This document shows positions 7,346-30,471 of a DNA stretch of 36,119 nt, piece after piece; positions within the stretch are counted from its first letter, which is position 1, and each line of letters opens with the position of its first letter. This DNA comes from a virus. The translations under genes were made by a program, and so were the position numbers. The stretch covers positions 1 to 36,119 of IMG/VR virus record IMGVR_UViG_3300017782_000079. One strand, 5' to 3'. The notes under the pieces were generated by a model. The model worked only from the letters and a program-made list of their open reading frames with translations. It ran no database searches and was not told the DNA's origin.

Positions 7346-7523
7346 CATAGGTGATACTGTTACTGCTAAAGTATTAGGTACTCATGGAGAAGAAGAATAC
7401 GTAAGTGGAGAAATTGCATCAATAAGCGAGGATTATGTTTTTATAGTAAGCAAATACCCTCGTAAAAAACACTACTCAATAAAAACCCAAAACATCATAG
7501 GAGGAGTTAATGGGCAAAAATAA
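7317..7523 (+). CDS. Small beta-rich hypothetical protein
   Basis: A TTG-started frame overlaps the end of the resolvase gene by 29 bp and the start of the replication gene by 14 bp. The 68-residue product reads like a small beta barrel (IGDTVTAKVLGTHGEEEYVS, GEIASISEDYVFIVSKY) with a basic stretch PRKKHYSIK. It may be a KOW/Tudor-like or DNA-associated accessory, but no family is recognised. Coupling to the replication initiator suggests a replication-related role. Confidence 0.65.
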   Translation: MDNEFKNSLSIGDTVTAKVLGTHGEEEYVSGEIASISEDYVFIVSKYPRKKHYSIKTQNIIGGVNGQK

Positions 7524-8511
7524 ATTAGGTAAAGCGCCGGCATTTCAGTTTTATGCTAGCGATTTTTTATCAGATATAAATGTAACCACAATGACAATGG
7601 CTCAAAGAGGTATGTATATAACCTTGCTAGCATTTGAATGGATTGAAGGGTCATTACCTACCGATATATTAAAACTAAGGATTTTATGTGGTAATCATCC
7701 TGATTTTGATAGCGATTGGCAAGTCGTTAGCAGTTGTTTTACTAATTCAGATGGAAAACTATACAACAACCGCTTAGAATCAGAGCGCAGTAATATGGTA
7801 GCGTATAGAGAAAGAATGAGCGCTAATGGACGAAAAGGGGCGGAGAGCAGATGGCAAGGCCATGGCAAGGCCATAGCTAAGCCATCCAATAAAGAAGTAG
7901 AAGAAGAAGTTGTAGTTAAAAGTAAAAGAACAAATGTAAAAAAACAATTTACAGATGAATTTTTAAATGAATTTTGGACATTATACCCACGTTCTGATAA
8001 TCGTAAAAGAGCGCTTGATAAATATGTACTGATTAGAAAAAGTGGAACCTCAAAAGAGAATATTATAGATGGTCTAAAAAATTATATGAAATATTGGAAA
8101 GCTAAAGGAACAGAGCCTCAATACATCCCTATGGCTAGCACTTGGTTAACTCAAGAGCTTTGGGGCGATGAATTAATGTTTAAAAATACCGGAGTACAGA
8201 ATATTAATGTACCTATAAAGCAAGATTGGATGTGCCTTGAATGTGGACACGAAAAAACTACTGACACTAAAGAACTTAATAAAGAAGAAAAGTTTTGTAG
8301 TGAATGTAAAGATGGTATTTACGAGACAAAAAGAATGGCTTTACTTGAGCGAAGATTAATAGAAGCTGATAGTGCTAGAAAGAAAAATACTGGACAGCAG
8401 GACATTCCTACTGGAAAGCTCAAGCTAGAACGCCAGACGCAGCCCAGAAATCAGGGAAGCAGCGACAATTCTAGCACGTTAGCAGATGTTCTGCAAAGTT
8501 TTGGGGCGTAG
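7510..8511 (+). CDS. DUF1376 replication initiator / DnaT-like protein with internal iterons
   Basis: Residues 8-105 match DUF1376 (AFQFYASDFLSDINVTTMTM, then RGMYITLLAFEWIEGSLPTD), a winged-helix domain of phage replication proteins. Residues about 150-225 form the second conserved region (FLNEFWTLYP, then YIPMASTWLTQELWGDE) seen in DnaT/DnaD-like helicase loaders. Residues about 235-265 hold a zinc ribbon (C-L-E-C ... C-S-E-C). The linker near residues 114-125 is encoded by three 11-bp iterons, the arrangement of lambda O, where the origin lies in the initiator gene. Likely role: origin recognition and loading of host helicase. GGAGGAG precedes the ATG. Confidence 0.8.
   Translation: MGKNKLGKAPAFQFYASDFLSDINVTTMTMAQRGMYITLLAFEWIEGSLPTDILKLRILCGNHPDFDSDWQVVSSCFTNSDGKLYNNRLESERSNMVAYRERMSANGRKGAESRWQGHGKAIAKPSNKEVEEEVVVKSKRTNVKKQFTDEFLNEFWTLYPRSDNRKRALDKYVLIRKSGTSKENIIDGLKNYMKYWKAKGTEPQYIPMASTWLTQELWGDELMFKNTGVQNINVPIKQDWMCLECGHEKTTDTKELNKEEKFCSECKDGIYETKRMALLERRLIEADSARKKNTGQQDIPTGKLKLERQTQPRNQGSSDNSSTLADVLQSFGA
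7851..7883 (+). repeat. Three 11-bp iterons inside the replication gene
   Basis: ATGGCAAGGCC occurs at 7851-7861 and exactly again at 7862-7872, followed in register by ATAGCTAAGCC at 7873-7883 (8 of 11 identical). The same family occurs inverted at 17372-17437. A purine-rich AAGAAGTAGAAG tract follows, as it does beside the other array. Candidate initiator-binding sites and origin element. Confidence 0.75.
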
Positions 8512-12261: not shown

Positions 12262-12308
12262 TTAATTAATTATTACTTTCACTAAAGTTTCAAGTAATAA
12301 TCAATTAA
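12262..12308 (-). promoter_or_regulatory. Intergenic hairpin with conserved loop (copy 3)
   Basis: The inner 10-bp stem (12269-12278 with 12292-12301), one A-C mismatch and a further 6-bp stem (12262-12267 with 12303-12308) enclose the 13-nt loop GAAACTTTAGTGA (minus strand). Positions 12261-12301 are identical to 11201-11241 over 41 bp. It overlaps the stop codon of the gene at 12301-12780. Confidence 0.75.
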
Positions 12309-12780
12309 TATGTGGTTGGAAAATGCTAGGAACTGCTCTGTCCGTCCATTTAGCGTTGTTTAATTTTGTACCTACGTAATAGTCTTGATAGGCTTTCGTA
12401 GCCTTAGTATTTTTATATTTGTCCGGCATAGCTTGAGCAAATGGAGTCAATTCGTAGGTAGGCATATTAACAAGCCACATGTTATCTATGCACCATTGTA
12501 TGACTGCTTGTGATTTGTGTGTTTTTTTGTATCTGTGGGTATATTCTTGTGCTAGCGCAATTCCATGCGCGGCCAGCCACTCGAAATTAGAATAAGAATT
12601 ACGTGCCCAAATTGTACAAGGGTGATTATAATGCGCTTTTTTGTAAGGCACATCATGTTTGTCTTGGTCGAATGCAGAACATAACATTTGCGCTGATTCT
12701 AGCACCATTTTTACAACATGTTTATCATGTTGCATTTGTGCTGATTTAGTTGGGCAAAGGTCTAATGCGAATATGTTCAT
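12301..12780 (-). CDS. Pyrimidine-dimer DNA glycosylase (T4 endonuclease V-like) family protein
   Basis: The 159-residue protein begins MNIFALDLCPTKSAQMQHDK and continues HVVKMVLESAQMLCSAF, then NHPCTIWARNSYSNFEWLAA and EYTHRYKKTHKS. This matches a phage family related to pyrimidine-dimer DNA glycosylase/AP lyase (PF03013-like), with the conserved DKHVVKM helix and the W-x-R-x-S-x2-N-x3-L block. Chemistry is inferred from family: base excision or another glycosylase action on DNA. Its ATG is one base past the upstream stop. Confidence 0.75.
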   Translation of the reverse strand: MNIFALDLCPTKSAQMQHDKHVVKMVLESAQMLCSAFDQDKHDVPYKKAHYNHPCTIWARNSYSNFEWLAAHGIALAQEYTHRYKKTHKSQAVIQWCIDNMWLVNMPTYELTPFAQAMPDKYKNTKATKAYQDYYVGTKLNNAKWTDRAVPSIFQPHIN

Positions 12781-13205: not shown

Positions 13206-13249
13206 TTAATTATTATTATTATCACTTACGTTTAAATAATAATAATTAA
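13206..13249 (-). promoter_or_regulatory. Intergenic hairpin with conserved loop (copy 4)
   Basis: A 15-bp perfect stem (13206-13220 with 13235-13249) has the 14-nt loop TAAACGTAAGTGAT on the minus strand. The loop core AAAC-(G/T)-T-(A/T)-AGTGA matches copies 2 and 3, while the stem is a different TTA/ATT-rich sequence. It overlaps the stop of the VWA-like gene (TAA at 13246-13248). Confidence 0.75.
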
Positions 13250-14124
13250 ACATGGTTGAACCACTTAGGTGGCTTTGCTATTGTTTGAAGTGCTTTTTCT
13301 AGTCCGTCGATAGTATCGGCATCGGTTTTGCAGAATCGTTGTTCTACTGCATGGATTAGATTTAATTCGCGCTTATATGTATCTGTGGTTTCTACTTGAT
13401 AACCTAGACTCCCATCAAACCCATACACTTTTTCCATGAGTCCGAACATAAAGTCGCGGAATAATCCGGGTAGGCCGGCAGTCATAAGCCTATGTACATC
13501 AAGCGGTTCGTTTGCTAGCTTAAATGGTATAGATATACCAAATCTATTCCAGTTTTTGCTACCACTATATCCGGCAAAATTGTAAGCAATAACCTCGACA
13601 CCGTAGCCAAGTTTTGTAATAACATCACAAATGCATGCTAGCGTAGCTCCAAGTCTTGCAAAATCTTTTTCCTTGTGACCACATGCTATTGCCATGTTCA
13701 TACCAATACGAACATTTGCACGCTTAGACTTGCGAATTGTAGTTTCCCAATATTGGTCGCTACCACCCATTAATCTCGACATACTTAAGTCGTCGCCGTC
13801 GTCTCTGCGAACTCGTTTACGCTTACATGACAAACCCATGCCGGCAAACTTAGATACGTCGAGTCTAGTGTCTATGCTAGAACGAAGTTTTTGGTATGTC
13901 TTCATCATAGCATCCGATGTTCTGCCGACCATCAAAGCGCGTTGAACATTTTCGCGCCCTACAACATGCTTGCCGTATTGCCATGTTTTTGTACGTTTAT
14001 GAGTGTACAAATCATTGTCGTCAATAATGTCTAGCATTGTTTTTACGTTGGGAATTTGCACTACGGCATGTTTACCTTCGTATTGGTCGTCGATAATTTT
14101 TGGTTCTAGAATTTGCATACTCAT
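13246..14124 (-). CDS. VWA-like (DUF7192-like) partner of the AAA+ ATPase
   Basis: The 292-residue protein has a basic loop (CKRKRVRRDDGDD, about 100-112), then strand-helix-strand ANVRIGMNMAIACG (136-149), FARLGATLACICDVI and GYGVEVIAYN (173-182). This is the alternation of a von Willebrand factor A domain, but the D-x-S-x-S metal site is replaced by N-M-A-I-A, as I recall in phage DUF7192 proteins. It starts one base after the AAA+ gene, with its ribosome site inside that gene. The MoxR-VWA pairing suggests an ATPase-driven remodelling complex; the target is unknown. Confidence 0.65.
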   Translation of the reverse strand: MSMQILEPKIIDDQYEGKHAVVQIPNVKTMLDIIDDNDLYTHKRTKTWQYGKHVVGRENVQRALMVGRTSDAMMKTYQKLRSSIDTRLDVSKFAGMGLSCKRKRVRRDDGDDLSMSRLMGGSDQYWETTIRKSKRANVRIGMNMAIACGHKEKDFARLGATLACICDVITKLGYGVEVIAYNFAGYSGSKNWNRFGISIPFKLANEPLDVHRLMTAGLPGLFRDFMFGLMEKVYGFDGSLGYQVETTDTYKRELNLIHAVEQRFCKTDADTIDGLEKALQTIAKPPKWFNHV

Positions 14125-14125
14125 A

Positions 14126-15331
14126 TTATTTACTCTCCTTTAATAATCCGTTAACATTAACTTTACTCAGTTCCTCTTTCGTCCACCCTGTAGTTACAAT
14201 GTCGAGAAACTGCTTATTTGATTTGCCTGCTAGCCTCCATGTTTGGCCGTCAAGAAACAACCTCGTGCTAATGGTACGTCTAACATGCTCACTCTTGCAT
14301 TGGTCTCGAAGTTTCCAGAGTACATTTGCCATGTCAGTAAAATCTCCGGCTAATGCACGTTCTACGTTTCTGTCGTAATCGACATGAACTTTGACTGCTT
14401 GCAGTCTGTCTAAGGTCGCTAGGTCTAGTTGACCTCTACCGGCGAACTCGAAGTCGTTGCCGTCACCCCATGTATTACTTGCTACTGCTACATGAAAGTC
14501 GTCGTGTTTCTTGGCTACCGGATTGTCCTTGTCGTTTGGAGTTGCTAGCACACCCTGATTGTCGAAGACACTATTAAACACTAGGCCACAATTAGCATCG
14601 AAGCCGTCAAACTCGTCGAGACATAGGAATGAACCATTCCTAAACGACCTTGCTACTGCGCCGTCAATAAACGTGCCGTCGAATGTCATTCGCCCTGTCA
14701 TATGTGATTCTGTGACTCCGGCGCTACCTTTGAGATATTCGTAGTTATCTTCGTCGGTATTAAAGCCTAGTGCATCAGCACATTGTTCGATGAGAAATGA
14801 TTTGCCGGTTCCACTTGGCCCACATAACCACACTCTCTTGAAATGCTTAAGGCATTCTAGCACAAATGGAAACTGCTTATGCTTTAAGCCATCGGTTTTT
14901 TTAACCTCGACGTCGTTAATCTTGACGTACACCGGGTTCTGTAATTCCTTTAGTTTGTCGTCAATTAACTGATTCATTTTGGTTGTTTCCTCGGCAACAC
15001 CCTCAATAAAAGTATCTCTGATACTCTCGGTTCGTTTGTAAATGTCGTCTCCAAGTTTCTCTGCTACCTTGTCAGCTAGCATGTCTTCTAGGCTACCACT
15101 TGGCGCCGTCTGTGGTTGCGGTTGCGGTGTTGGTGCTTCCGGTCTCCTCGGTGTAGTCTCTTCCGGCGGTGTTGGAACTCTGTTGTCGACTAGAAAGTCT
15201 ATCAGTTCGTACTGCTTAGCTGATTGTACCCAAGAACTAGCCTTGTCAAGTTGTCGACACTTAGTGATAGCTAGTGTTTTAATTCTGCTATGTTTCATAG
15301 CATCTAATTCCATTCTTGTATAGTTTCCCAT
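14126..15331 (-). CDS. MoxR-like AAA+ ATPase
   Basis: The 401-residue protein has a small N-terminal helical domain (residues 1-51), a Pro/Thr/Gln-rich linker (52-78), a predicted coiled region (80-132) and an AAA+ core. Walker A is GPSGTGKS (171-178), Walker B FLCLDEFD (235-242) and sensor 1 ASNTWGDG with N286. The GRGQLDLATLDRL region holds the arginine-finger candidate R309, and RRTISTR is a sensor-2 candidate. It resembles MoxR/CobS-type ATPases, which act with VWA proteins, here the next gene. AAGGAG precedes the ATG. Confidence 0.88.
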   Translation of the reverse strand: MGNYTRMELDAMKHSRIKTLAITKCRQLDKASSWVQSAKQYELIDFLVDNRVPTPPEETTPRRPEAPTPQPQPQTAPSGSLEDMLADKVAEKLGDDIYKRTESIRDTFIEGVAEETTKMNQLIDDKLKELQNPVYVKINDVEVKKTDGLKHKQFPFVLECLKHFKRVWLCGPSGTGKSFLIEQCADALGFNTDEDNYEYLKGSAGVTESHMTGRMTFDGTFIDGAVARSFRNGSFLCLDEFDGFDANCGLVFNSVFDNQGVLATPNDKDNPVAKKHDDFHVAVASNTWGDGNDFEFAGRGQLDLATLDRLQAVKVHVDYDRNVERALAGDFTDMANVLWKLRDQCKSEHVRRTISTRLFLDGQTWRLAGKSNKQFLDIVTTGWTKEELSKVNVNGLLKESK

Positions 15332-16697: not shown

Positions 16698-16946
16698 CTA
16701 TACGAACGCGTCCATAGGCATTTCGCCGTTCTCGTCGAGAAGTGCTAGCATTCCGTCTTGAGCGGTGAGCCATGCTTCCTCGCGTAGTTCAGCTTCGCGT
16801 TTCTTGGTGTACGTACACGTAGGAAAGTCAGCACGAAACTCTTCGTCGTAAGCTAGAAGAGCCTGTTCTTCGCGTGGTGTGCATACGTCTGTATGCTTGG
16901 GTGTCTGTGCGTTCTGGGTGTTCGAGTTTTGTATGATTGTTATCAT
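16698..16946 (-). CDS. Small acidic protein, first gene of the leftward operon
   Basis: The 82-residue product has a polar N-terminus (IQNSNTQNAQTPKHTDVCTP) and an acidic helical remainder (REEQALLAYDEEFRADF, then REAELREEAWLTAQDGMLAL). CAGGAG precedes the ATG. Base composition is markedly GC-richer than the structural genes. Acidic small early proteins may act as DNA mimics or host inhibitors, but nothing here proves that. Confidence 0.7.
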   Translation of the reverse strand: MITIIQNSNTQNAQTPKHTDVCTPREEQALLAYDEEFRADFPTCTYTKKREAELREEAWLTAQDGMLALLDENGEMPMDAFV

Positions 16947-17278
16947 GGTTTTTCTCCTGTTCTACGCATAGGGTGGTATCCTTACGCGTAAGTTCGTTAG
17001 TTTGAATCCGACTGAAACTGTCCGTCGGCGACATCCAAACTTAAGCATGAAAGCTAGGCAAAACCTAGCGAAACTTATATAACCGTCGGCTATAAGGCTC
17101 AAACGTAGGCAAAACTAGGGCAAATGGTCGCAAAGATATGAATGATTGCGCCTAGCGAGGAGAGAGCCAACGCGAAACGCGAACTCAACGAGAATCGAGT
17201 GAGTCGTCCGGGAAACGAGCCGGGTGTGCATACGTATATAACGTTCCACACATTTTTTACACAGTTTTTTAGTGCCTC

Positions 17279-17292: not shown

Positions 17293-17310
17293 TTAGTGTT
17301 TTTTTGCACA

Positions 17311-17340
17311 GGGAGTAGTTAGGGAGTAGGTTGGGAGTAG
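17311..17340 (+). repeat. Three GGGAGTAG repeats at 11-bp period
   Basis: GGGAGTAG begins at exactly 17311, 17322 and 17333, so all three sit on the same helical face. The spacing equals that of the unrelated iterons beginning at 17372. Candidate binding array for an origin or transcription factor. Confidence 0.7.
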
Positions 17341-17371
17341 GGTTTTATATCTAACAATACTAACACTTAAT

Positions 17372-17437
17372 AGCAATGCCATATTTATAAAATGGCTTTG
17401 CCATAGCTTTGCTATAGCTTAGCTATAGCCTTGCCAT
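17372..17437 (-). repeat. 11-bp iteron array matching those in the replication gene
   Basis: Read on the minus strand from 17437: ATGGCAAGGCT, ATAGCTAAGCT, ATAGCAAAGCT and ATGGCAAAGCC (17427, 17416, 17405, 17394 as left ends). Then comes an AT-rich unit and a degenerate ATGGCATTGCT at 17372-17382, still in 11-bp register. The consensus AT(G/A)GC(A/T)A(G/A)GC(C/T) is the same as the three iterons at 7851-7883. Confidence 0.8.
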
Positions 17438-17441
17438 GCAT

Positions 17442-17500
17442 ATAGAAGTAGAAGTAGAAGTATATAGTATTATATAATATATATAATTAATAAATATAAA
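17442..17500. other. Origin candidate: GAAGTA repeats and AT-only unwinding tract
   Basis: Directly after the iterons come three GAAGTA units (about 17445-17462) and then 40 bases (17461-17500) containing a single G or C. Iterons beside such a tract are the standard layout of a theta-type origin with a DNA unwinding element. The initiator would be the DUF1376 protein. Confidence 0.6.
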
Positions 17501-17524
17501 CCTTAGGTTTATAAACCTTAGGTT
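17495..17524 (+). repeat. Tandem 15-bp repeat
   Basis: TATAAACCTTAGGTT occurs twice head-to-tail (17495-17509 and 17510-17524). Each unit contains the near-palindrome AACCT-T-AGGTT. It lies about 100 bases upstream of the first packaging-side gene and is a plausible operator for that transcript. Confidence 0.75.
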
Positions 17525-17555
17525 GCAAAATCAACCATTTTTTACTTTTAACTAC

Positions 17556-17621: not shown

Positions 17622-17819
17622 ATGGCTTACGAAGCAAAAGACAACACATTTAGTATGTTTGATAACGAGAATAAAACAAATGAAAACCAACCCGACTTTA
17701 CAGGTCAGGGCAAGATTGGTGGTAAGGAAGTAAAAGTTGCCGGATGGAAGAAGACATCAGCTAACGGCAAAGAGTACATTTCTTACAAGGTAGAAGAAAA
17801 AGGCGCTTACCTTGGCTAA
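17622..17819 (+). CDS. Small DUF736-like protein
   Basis: The 65-residue product has an acidic, Asn-rich N-terminus and a C-terminal beta segment, FTGQGKIGGKEVKVAGWKKT then NGKEYISYKVEE. This recalls DUF736-type phage and plasmid proteins (G-x-x-x-I-G-x-K, AGW-x-K, G-K-x-Y-I-S). AGGAG precedes the ATG. It heads the rightward packaging transcript; a ssDNA- or RNA-associated role is possible but unproven. Confidence 0.65.
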   Translation: MAYEAKDNTFSMFDNENKTNENQPDFTGQGKIGGKEVKVAGWKKTSANGKEYISYKVEEKGAYLG

Positions 17820-27605: not shown

Positions 27606-30471
27606 ACAAGTTTATAAAATTGACCAGTTTCACGGCGGTGTAAATAATAACGCAGACCCAAGAGATATTAAAGACCATGAATTTGTTGAATTAAGAGATA
27701 TAGTAATTAATAATATTGGTCAAATCAAAACAATGGGTAGGGGTGCGCTTTTAAATTATGTCTTTGAAACAGATTCTTTAACCAACTCTTATGGGTATGG
27801 CCTTTTTGCATTCAGCCATGATTATACGATGGCAGGTCATCACAGTCTTTTGCGAAACGGAATTACAAACCAAAATTCTGGTAGTATATGGACAGCTACT
27901 ACCAATGGTTTATATGGGTGGACAAAAAATAACGGGAATTTTACATATGCTGCTCAAGGCGATGTTGGTGTTATTTATCAAACAGCTAACAATAGGCAAG
28001 ATAGAGGCTTTAATTCGACTAATTATAAATTAACATATACAGTAGCCGGCTACTCAGAGTCAGGAGGCACTCCTGTTTTTAAAATAAAAGGAGGAAGCGG
28101 AGAATTTGCAAACACAGACCAAAACTTGACAAGAGCAAATGGAACGTATACAAAAACTTTTCTTTCTCACTCGAGTGCTAGGACTGGAAAATTTTCTATA
28201 CAAGCAAGTGGAAGTACAATGAATATAGTTTTAAGTAATTTAAAATTAGAACCTATTGCAGTAAATACTGGTGATAATTACTTATTTAATTATAGAGGGC
28301 CGGGCGCAAACAATGTTTTTGAAGATGTTATTTTTACATATTCTTTTAATCAAGGTACTTACGCTGTTCAAGAAAAACCTTCTTCTGATACATTGAATTT
28401 TTCTTTTCCAAGAGAGCAAGGAGCTACAATATATCCTCAATATAATTTAATCGATGGCAACATAAGGTTATCAGATAGAAAAAAAGGTGAATACAATATT
28501 TTAAAATGGTATGGGTATATCGAAAGAAATAGGTGGGGGACAACAAGTGTAAAGTGTAATAAGTGGATTTATACGGATGCTGAGCTTTTATCTCCTACAG
28601 ATACTAATATTGTTTTGTCCGGTTCGGGCAGTTCTTATAGTCCAGATGAAGGTAAGTTAGAAATATCGACTGACTACGGATTCAGCAATATGGTTGCAGA
28701 ATCGGGGAAATGGAATCCTAATGGTGTAGTTGGAACTTCTGCAAGCTCTGGAAACGCTTTAAGAAAACTTATATCTAATAGCGCTGTTTTTAGTTCTAAT
28801 ATGGTAGGCATGTCTGTAAAAATGGGTTCAAGCGTAAGTATTATTACAGGTTTTGAAAGTGAAACTATTGTTCACACAGAATCTATAACTTGGTCAGATA
28901 GTACAGCTTTTCAAGTCTACGATAGTTATGATTTAGGATTTACTTGGGTTTATGATGGTAATCAAGAAAGCTTAATACACAATAGGACTTCTATTGCTGA
29001 GCCCACCAAAAAAAACTTTAGTTTTTTTATACAAGACATTGCAGCCGGGCATGCTTGGGATACTAGCTTTACAGGTAGAATAACAGGCGCTAATATGTAT
29101 TATAGAAAAAATTCAGATACGTCAAAAACGTGGTATCATTTGTTAGAAATTGATTTAAATAAAGGATTAAGAAAATCTGACCAAGAAGACTTTACAACAA
29201 CTTGGACTCAAATAACATCAATAACAGAATACCACTTACAAGACACTTTTATATCTGAACCACCAACATTTGAAACATACGAAACAAGAAATGGTTTTAA
29301 AAACGACCCTACAGAACTTTTTAATATGAATAACGACGACCAAGTTGGAGTAGGTTATTCGACAGGAGTTTTTGCAAATCGTCAGTTTTATATTGGAAAT
29401 ATTAAAATGGCAAACAAAGATGGCATTTATAAAAATCATGGAGACATGATGTTAAAGTCTTTGCCAAATAAATTTGACCTTTTTCCTTTAAATAGAAAAG
29501 TAGAAGTAAGCGTTCAAGATGGAGATGAAATTGTTCATTTAGATACATATGCTGACAGATTGTTGCAGTATAAAAAAAATAAACTACATATTATAAACAT
29601 ATCTCAAGAAATAGAATTTTTAGAAGATACATATATGTATAAAGGGGTAAAAAATCCTTATGCAGTATGCCGAACAGATTATGGCATAGCTTGGGTAAAT
29701 GATTTAGGCTGTTACTTATATGATGGTAAGGAAGTAAGGAACTTATTAGAACATGAAGGTTTTTCTAGGTTTGATGTGCATATAAGAGATTTAGACAGTT
29801 CAAATGGTTGGTTTAACTATGATAATGATAATCCTTCTATTGGTTACTTACCAAATAAACGCCAATTAATTATTATGGCAGACCCAAAAGGTGAGCAACA
29901 TGATAATTCTATATACTTATATGATATGACAACAAAAAGTTGGACATATGGACTTAATAAAATAGACACCGATGAAGAATCGGGTAGTAGTTTGCCTGTT
30001 TCAAATTTTGTAAACGATTATAAAGGTAGGCTTGTTTGGTCTGCTGGAACTGAAAGTAGCGAATTAATGTACTGGACTGATACGCCAACTGCTTCTATAA
30101 CCGCAATTATAAAAACAAAAGATATTGATTTTAACGCTCCCGCAGTAAGAAAAAGAATTTATAAAGTAAGAATTTCATATAAAGGCGATGCTGATACTTT
30201 AACTTTTCAGTATTCTGTAAATGGAGACAATAATACTTTTTATAATTTTGAAGGAACATCTTTAGGTAAGCCAACAGGAAGTGCAGACACAACTCCATTA
30301 GAAGATACTAACGCAGACGACACTTACTGGTATCATGCTGAATTAAAACCTGCGACAACATCTGAAGCAAATAATATTTACAGCTTTCAACTGCATATGA
30401 GTGGAACAGTATTAAGCTCATTTGCTATAAATGATATATCAATAATATATAGAATTAAAACAGTTAAATAA
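27598..30471 (+). CDS. Large tail / stabilisation protein, gp10-like
   Basis: The 957-residue protein begins VYKIDQFHGGVNNNADPRDI, then VELRDIVINNIGQIKTMGRG. This is the typical opening of large podovirus tail hub or DNA-stabilisation proteins. Later repeats such as DTYADRLLQYKKNKLHIINI, YGIAWVNDLGCYLYDGKEVR and NKRQLIIMADPKGEQHDNSI, YLYDMTTKSW look like beta-propeller blades. The first half (about 150-520) is a Ser/Gly/Thr-rich beta region with carbohydrate-binding-like modules. It likely plugs the portal and carries receptor-binding parts. Confidence 0.75.
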   Translation: MAKQVYKIDQFHGGVNNNADPRDIKDHEFVELRDIVINNIGQIKTMGRGALLNYVFETDSLTNSYGYGLFAFSHDYTMAGHHSLLRNGITNQNSGSIWTATTNGLYGWTKNNGNFTYAAQGDVGVIYQTANNRQDRGFNSTNYKLTYTVAGYSESGGTPVFKIKGGSGEFANTDQNLTRANGTYTKTFLSHSSARTGKFSIQASGSTMNIVLSNLKLEPIAVNTGDNYLFNYRGPGANNVFEDVIFTYSFNQGTYAVQEKPSSDTLNFSFPREQGATIYPQYNLIDGNIRLSDRKKGEYNILKWYGYIERNRWGTTSVKCNKWIYTDAELLSPTDTNIVLSGSGSSYSPDEGKLEISTDYGFSNMVAESGKWNPNGVVGTSASSGNALRKLISNSAVFSSNMVGMSVKMGSSVSIITGFESETIVHTESITWSDSTAFQVYDSYDLGFTWVYDGNQESLIHNRTSIAEPTKKNFSFFIQDIAAGHAWDTSFTGRITGANMYYRKNSDTSKTWYHLLEIDLNKGLRKSDQEDFTTTWTQITSITEYHLQDTFISEPPTFETYETRNGFKNDPTELFNMNNDDQVGVGYSTGVFANRQFYIGNIKMANKDGIYKNHGDMMLKSLPNKFDLFPLNRKVEVSVQDGDEIVHLDTYADRLLQYKKNKLHIINISQEIEFLEDTYMYKGVKNPYAVCRTDYGIAWVNDLGCYLYDGKEVRNLLEHEGFSRFDVHIRDLDSSNGWFNYDNDNPSIGYLPNKRQLIIMADPKGEQHDNSIYLYDMTTKSWTYGLNKIDTDEESGSSLPVSNFVNDYKGRLVWSAGTESSELMYWTDTPTASITAIIKTKDIDFNAPAVRKRIYKVRISYKGDADTLTFQYSVNGDNNTFYNFEGTSLGKPTGSADTTPLEDTNADDTYWYHAELKPATTSEANNIYSFQLHMSGTVLSSFAINDISIIYRIKTVK

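Follow-up and report, generated by a model that had tools for sequence, protein, structure and literature searches.

Does the cluster of repeats at 17.3-17.5 kb in this virus mark an origin of replication, and if so, which protein would recognize it? To approach these questions, we analyzed the 36,119-nt window, which is the whole IMG/VR virus record, together with siblings gathered by protein, by iteron pattern, and by protein profile (62 loci). Our reading is that the region is probably an initiator-dependent, theta-type origin bound by a DUF1376 protein, with a second module inside the DUF1376 gene.

The repeat cluster is real and well above chance (Table 1). Its parts are those listed in the original prediction: three GGGAGTAG units at an exact 11-bp period (starting at 17311, 17322, and 17333); iterons of the ATGGCAAGGC type at the same period, ATGGCAAGGC being the minus strand of the 17.4-kb array; GAAGTA repeats, present as the (TAGAAG) repeat; a tract with a single G/C, in a record that has no other 40-bp stretch with one G/C or fewer; and a tandem 15-mer in two identical copies. 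The 11-bp iteron pattern ATRGCWWNGCY matches the window 16 times against 1.24 expected (0 of 100 shuffles reached 16), and the matches cluster at two places, 17370-17437 and 7851-7885. Within 17311-17437, the autocorrelation has its peaks at 11 and 22 bp. Units of the main array have palindromic GCYATRGC cores and 3-bp spacers, and the site reads as four iterons, then 5-7 bp, then TAGAAGTAGAAGTAGAAG. The outlying copy starts 22 bp, or two turns, ahead of the array, and copies related to it also occur in L009 and L020. A pattern match in L005, in what appears to be a GC-rich stretch, was taken as chance or unrelated.

Table 1. Positions of the features in the window, with strand and basis of assignment
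Feature	Position	Strand	Basis
DUF1376 initiator gene	7510..8511	+	Pfam, PHROGs, AlphaFold2
In-gene iterons, 3 units, encode QGHGKAIAKP	7851..7885	+	iteron scan
In-gene triplet-phased element GAAGTAGAAGAAGAAGTTGTAG, encodes EVEEEVV	7893..7915	+	conserved in relatives
DnaA-box-like TTTTACACA (consensus TTWTNCACA)	17255..17263	+	sequence
DnaA-box-like TTTTGCACA	17302..17310	+	sequence
Three GGGAGTAG units, 11-bp period	17311..17340	+	pattern scan
Outlying iteron copy ATAGCAATGCCAT	17370..17382	+	iteron scan
Iteron array, four 11-bp units	17392..17437	+	orthologous arrays in siblings
Triplet-phased element (TAGAAG)3	17443..17462	+	kept in sibling origins
AT tract, putative DNA unwinding element	17461..17500	.	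stability and composition scan
Tandem 15-mers TATAAACCTTAGGTT, palindromic CCTTAGG core, 100% identical	17495..17524	+	
SSB-like gene (DUF736 / PHROG single-strand DNA binding protein)	17622..17819	+	homology scan

Duplex stability and phasing both support the origin-like character proposed for this module. The record's least stable 60-, 80-, 100-, and 150-bp segments all begin at 17440-17461, which puts the weakest helix of the whole record at the AT tract. The intergenic site is also the locus stability minimum in many siblings, and in several it is not (ranks 4 to 168). The modules of siblings precede an SSB-like gene and hold arrays of 3 to 6 units; their 11-bp phasing, the loss of which in close relatives had been named in advance as evidence against an origin, is conserved. 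Sibling origins also keep the triplet element as TAGAAG-, TAGCAG-, or TAGAAA-type repeats, and ACCTWAGRT elements lie 20-102 bp past its start in most siblings. The pattern TTWTNCACA has three plus-strand matches in the whole window, two of them at 17255 and 17302, and most sibling origins (not all) keep TTTTGCACA about 100-205 bp from the triplet element; as DnaA boxes, these two 9-mers are suggestive only.

The side-by-side arrays had been taken to suggest two proteins binding on one helix face, an idea that comparison across clades does not support. The GGGAGTAG array itself is real: it comprises exactly three occurrences in the window (shuffle mean, 0.28; 0 of 100 shuffles reached 3), and no 8-mer occurred three times at period 11 in any of 30 Markov-shuffled windows. 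Its position is lineage specific, as adjacency to the iterons is confined to the window's own clade. In other clades it is missing at that spot and lies about 0.9-1.05 kb off, or else beyond the neighboring small gene, 40-51 bp from an additional cluster of iterons. We rejected it as a second conserved initiator array because its position is not conserved between clades. The extra cluster was seen in L008 (150-258) and L177 (2000-2085), 40-51 bp from the GGGAGTAG array and separated from the main origin by about 850 bp that include a small leftward gene; ARAGORN finds no tRNA in the tRNA-like stretch beside it in either locus. Record G011 has two intergenic arrays, at 29161 and 29943.

The second place where iterons cluster is within the DUF1376 gene, where three iterons are followed, after an 8-bp gap, by GAAGTAGAAGAAGAAG. 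Iterons with a triplet element thus occur at 7851-7915 and again at 17.4 kb, making one two-part module present twice in the record, 9.5 kb apart. In every close relative of the gene, the in-gene iterons and triplet element are found at the same codons of the linker. We compared 15 sequences (98 pairs below 75% identity) for the use of identical codons at conserved residues. Over the whole gene, same-codon use is 0.558 against 0.494 expected; the ten windows of greatest excess all fall at aa 115-135, with approximately 0.80-0.97 observed against 0.41-0.54 expected. The in-gene copy is under selection at the DNA level. It encodes the end of the last helix of a winged-helix domain and the low-confidence linker behind it. 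Since the AlphaFold2 linker is of low confidence and lies between domains, the origin-like DNA occupies a part of the gene whose product can accommodate it, as is the case for lambda O.

Each related record that was found to cover the two sites (about 20 records) carries both copies. They are 7.4-11.3 kb apart, a distance that holds for G007 and G013 only when the record is taken as circular. In records with a diverged iteron or hexamer, the copies have changed jointly, in G031 and G032 and partly in G007, G029, and G033. The iteron of G031, the record of L074, is AAACGCTWAGC, which at up to one mismatch is confined in this 26.8-kb record to two places, the DUF1376 gene and the intergenic region ahead of the SSB-like gene; the L074 initiator is about 40% identical by tblastn and 34% over the alignment. 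In G032 (L076), an iteron GCCATCGCA and a hexamer CAGTAG, rather than TAGAAG, are altered at both places, G033 (L077) has CTAGGTTA and TATAACTCTTC in common between its two sites, and L068 and L069 have GC-rich spacers common to both. Own site pairs are more alike than swapped pairs (p 0.00005-0.0003 for k = 7 to 9, 13 clade representatives) in a permutation test that treats lineages as independent, ignoring kinship, and that rests mainly on the most divergent lineages; when relatives are close, an own pair does not come out as the best match, and the test fails to distinguish own from foreign sites. Joint change, with the peak of synonymous constraint at the in-gene module, links the DUF1376 protein to the intergenic array. 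That this protein binds the iterons is probable, given the same iterons in its own gene, the co-change of both copies, and the constrained synonymous codons.

An arrangement of this kind could also serve transcription, the 17.4-kb region being a divergent promoter/operator at which DUF1376 or another regulator binds the repeats and no replication starts. The region does lie between divergent transcription units, and phased operators on one helix face are frequent in phage control regions. The original prediction had placed it between leftward early genes and rightward late genes. The divergence stands, with a leftward gene starting at 16946 on one side and the rightward SSB-like gene (17622) on the other; one correction is that the RusA-like and DUF1376 replication genes are on the plus strand at 6.9-8.5 kb, outside the leftward block. 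Against an operator, the same module recurs within a coding region 7-11 kb off, with triplet element and synonymous constraint, and the record-wide stability minimum lies at 17.4 kb. Further, the iteron and triplet module of L174 is inverted relative to the SSB-like gene, making promoter elements unlikely. We regard a purely transcriptional role as improbable. We set aside GC skew as origin evidence, as its switch at 17 kb tracks gene direction and so gives no independent support.

What kind of protein is the DUF1376 product? PHROGs annotates it as a primosomal or replication initiation protein. Its match to Pfam DUF1376 (PF07120) scores 25.3 bits (E 2e-5), below the curated cut-off of 30.1, but the divergent homologues L074, L076, and L078 reach 36.5-42.2 bits, over the cut-off; another weak Pfam match is to Rep_Org_C. 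The AlphaFold2 model has a winged helix at aa 16-116 and a helical domain at 143-214, with a disordered linker at about 117-142 (low-confidence part, 125-138), and a zinc ribbon is also present. Foldseek alone gave no significant structural match to the model, and a PDB profile search with the protein found nothing. The top four chains by VIA-align (4pql, 5kbj, 4pt7, and 4pta) are initiator-type N-domains at Z 5.8-6.3, for a RepA-like N-domain under the level that excludes a common arrangement; a DnaD N-domain ranked seventh (Z 5.2). PHROGs, Pfam, and VIA-align are consistent, not conclusive, as to an initiator.

Iteron plasmids (RK2, P1, R6K, and staphylococcal RepA plasmids) likewise have iterons and DUE repeats, and solved initiator N-domains appear similar in fold to the modeled N-domain of the window protein. 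Here, in contrast, the setting is a phage genome with two distant sites, and no sequence homology was detected. Winged-helix Rep proteins of plasmids bind one strand of the DUE in addition to iteron dsDNA (PMC4081077), and we consider this the most likely mechanism here. We infer DUF1376 binding, unwinding, initiation, and a role for the triplet element. The N-terminal winged helix would bind the 11-bp-phased iterons at 17370-17437, and binding would strain and open the adjoining AT tract. The strand-asymmetric (TAGAAG)3 that lies between them may then be read in single-stranded form, whether by the phage's own initiator or by an initiator or helicase loader of the host, a reading that would fix the place and strand of helicase loading. 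The in-gene module would be bound by the same protein and may act as a second, early or regulatory, origin site, like oriL and oriR of SPP1.

In SPP1, oriL lies within gene 38 and oriR is intergenic, both with direct repeats and an AT-rich DUE and both bound by gp38 (PMC6316719). The window resembles SPP1 in having repeat sites in the initiator gene and between genes, about 13 kb apart in SPP1 and 9.5 kb here; as sequence repeats, the same direct repeats are found in the initiator gene and at the distant intergenic site. By this analogy, the two-site layout is one already known, that of oriL/oriR. In comparison to SPP1 as published, the initiator here is of the DUF1376 type and the phages are marine, and in the window a conserved triplet element of period 6 separates the iterons from the AT tract. 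The SPP1 two-origin design would thereby gain a second example, apparently an independent one. The system also provides a testable pairing of the widespread, uncharacterized DUF1376 initiator family with a DNA target, reached by natural joint change rather than by analogy.

Lambda is the other model, as its origin lies within gene O (PMC6022878). In both lambda and the window, iterons in the initiator gene are followed on the same strand by a purine-rich asymmetric segment, and the in-gene iterons of the window lie between the DNA-binding and C-terminal domains. Lambda differs in its 18-bp iterons at 20-24 bp spacing and in an A-rich segment with no regular hexamer; no second iteron copy is annotated in the region examined. 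On the coding strand of the lambda origin (L192:435-567), iterons precede the purine-rich run AAAAGAAAAAAGAAAAGA, the same polarity as that of the in-gene triplet element of the window.

As in lambda, the in-gene site at 7.9 kb could be the real start and the 17.4-kb array auxiliary, as a fork block, an enhancer, or a site of handcuffing or titration. The in-gene site is the more widespread, because cultured phages with related initiators (Rousseau, PfAn1, Mwe-JY08, Lbo-JY16, and Pkon1) have in-gene repeats and no distal iteron copy was found in them. Replication of SPP1 has been proposed to stall at gp38-bound oriR (PMC6316719), which also counts toward such a role. Set against this, iterons are more numerous at the intergenic site, no duplex in the record is nearly as weak, and the site keeps its own triplet element, not obviously needed by an enhancer or block. 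The in-gene site is only moderately unstable, its best rank being 542 among 36,058 60-bp windows. A start at 7.9 kb, with 17.4 kb as accessory, is in our judgment unlikely, if less so than an operator, and we continue to favor the intergenic region as an origin. DNA of the intergenic region gave only chance-level matches to cultured phages. In the cultured Pelagibacter phage EXVC032P Baldr (L198:32312-32425, OQ414636), ATAGC-type 11-bp iterons followed by CTTCATCTTCACCTTCAACTGC triplets mark the beginning of a small gene, downstream of which is a short DUF1376 gene.

The triplet-phased element extends beyond the siblings. A period-6 run (at least 17/24) is present in 23 of 31 distinct DUF1376-type genes, which include cultured phages of Brevibacterium, Pseudomonas, Microcystis, and Leptolyngbya, as opposed to 35 of 439 other ORFs of similar length from the same set of loci (Fisher p 6e-17), a count that does not represent 31 independent events, since the genes are homologous. 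The runs are nearly always within the linker. The dipeptides that they encode vary (NQ, TA, ET, TD, ST, EV, VS, and PN), as does the strand. A YAG-at-period-6 consensus across distant relatives is only weakly enriched (9/31 versus 44/439, p 0.004), and we draw nothing from it. Compared to the tandem 3'-(G/A)AT-5' trinucleotides of the DnaA-trio, the phage element does show TAG and AAG triplets, yet alternate triplets are frequently off pattern, and G032 has CAG and TAG in turn.

Such runs could be by-products of a low-complexity linker (EVEEE), their likeness to the intergenic repeat being coincidental. E/K/V-rich linkers are frequent in AT-rich genomes, and period-6 runs do occur in the control ORFs noted above. 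Yet the intergenic copy is noncoding, the synonymous codons of the in-gene copy are constrained, the runs are concentrated in DUF1376 genes, and in L076 and L078 the in-gene repeat is on the opposite strand and encodes TATATA or STSTST. Coincidence seems to us quite improbable.

The closest published element is the DnaA-trio, with consensus 3'-GAT-5' beside DnaA boxes, and DnaD binds TnnT pairs on the other strand (PMC10201434, PMC10797057). Like it, the window has repeated NAG-type trinucleotides beside initiator sites and AT-rich DNA, and the complement of the triplets reads TnnTnnT, similar to the DnaD recognition element (PMC10201434). Unlike it, the phage element has no adjacent DnaA box, is of mixed polarity between lineages, and has a period mostly of 6, not 3. 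We rejected membership in the DnaA-trio class, as the closest TTWTNCACA match begins 136 bp ahead of the triplet element, on the other side of the iterons, and polarity is not fixed: relative to the iterons, it differs between the window and L174 and even within G032. More tentatively, the period-6 element may be to phages what the DnaA-trio is to bacteria, a strand-specific code in ssDNA that initiators of the DUF1376 type read and that is general to the class, with dipeptide-repeat linkers (EV, ST, TD, ET, NQ, VS, and PN) mere translations of it; we hold this as a possibility short of even chances. Many phage initiator genes could then hide a triplet-phased unwinding signal in linker codons.

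The surroundings of the intergenic site bear on one further explanation, in which the iterons serve partition or packaging instead of forming an origin. Direct-repeat arrays also act as centromeres and pac sites, and a large terminase gene lies 2 kb to the right. Partition and pac sites are not characterized by a DUE beside them, by a copy within the initiator gene, or by joint change with that copy, and no ParA/ParB-like gene was recognized among the proteins scanned, which were part of the window's proteins; we give this explanation very little credence. An SSB-like gene adjoins the distal site in L174, L074, L176, L177, L188, and L077 and comes after the putative origin in siblings.

A GCGWACTCAAC-type element flanks the region on both sides, at 17171-17196 (upstream form, ACGCGAACTCAACG) and at 17524-17541 (downstream form, GCGAACTCAACC, ahead of a T run). 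It is the same in L007, L010, L014, and L016 and conserved across clades, and these elements are possibly promoters or transcript start elements. Farther to the left, a CobS-like AAA ATPase gene stands beside a DUF7192 gene on the minus strand (13246-15331), and the leftward block also holds a pyrimidine dimer DNA glycosylase-like gene (12301-12780).
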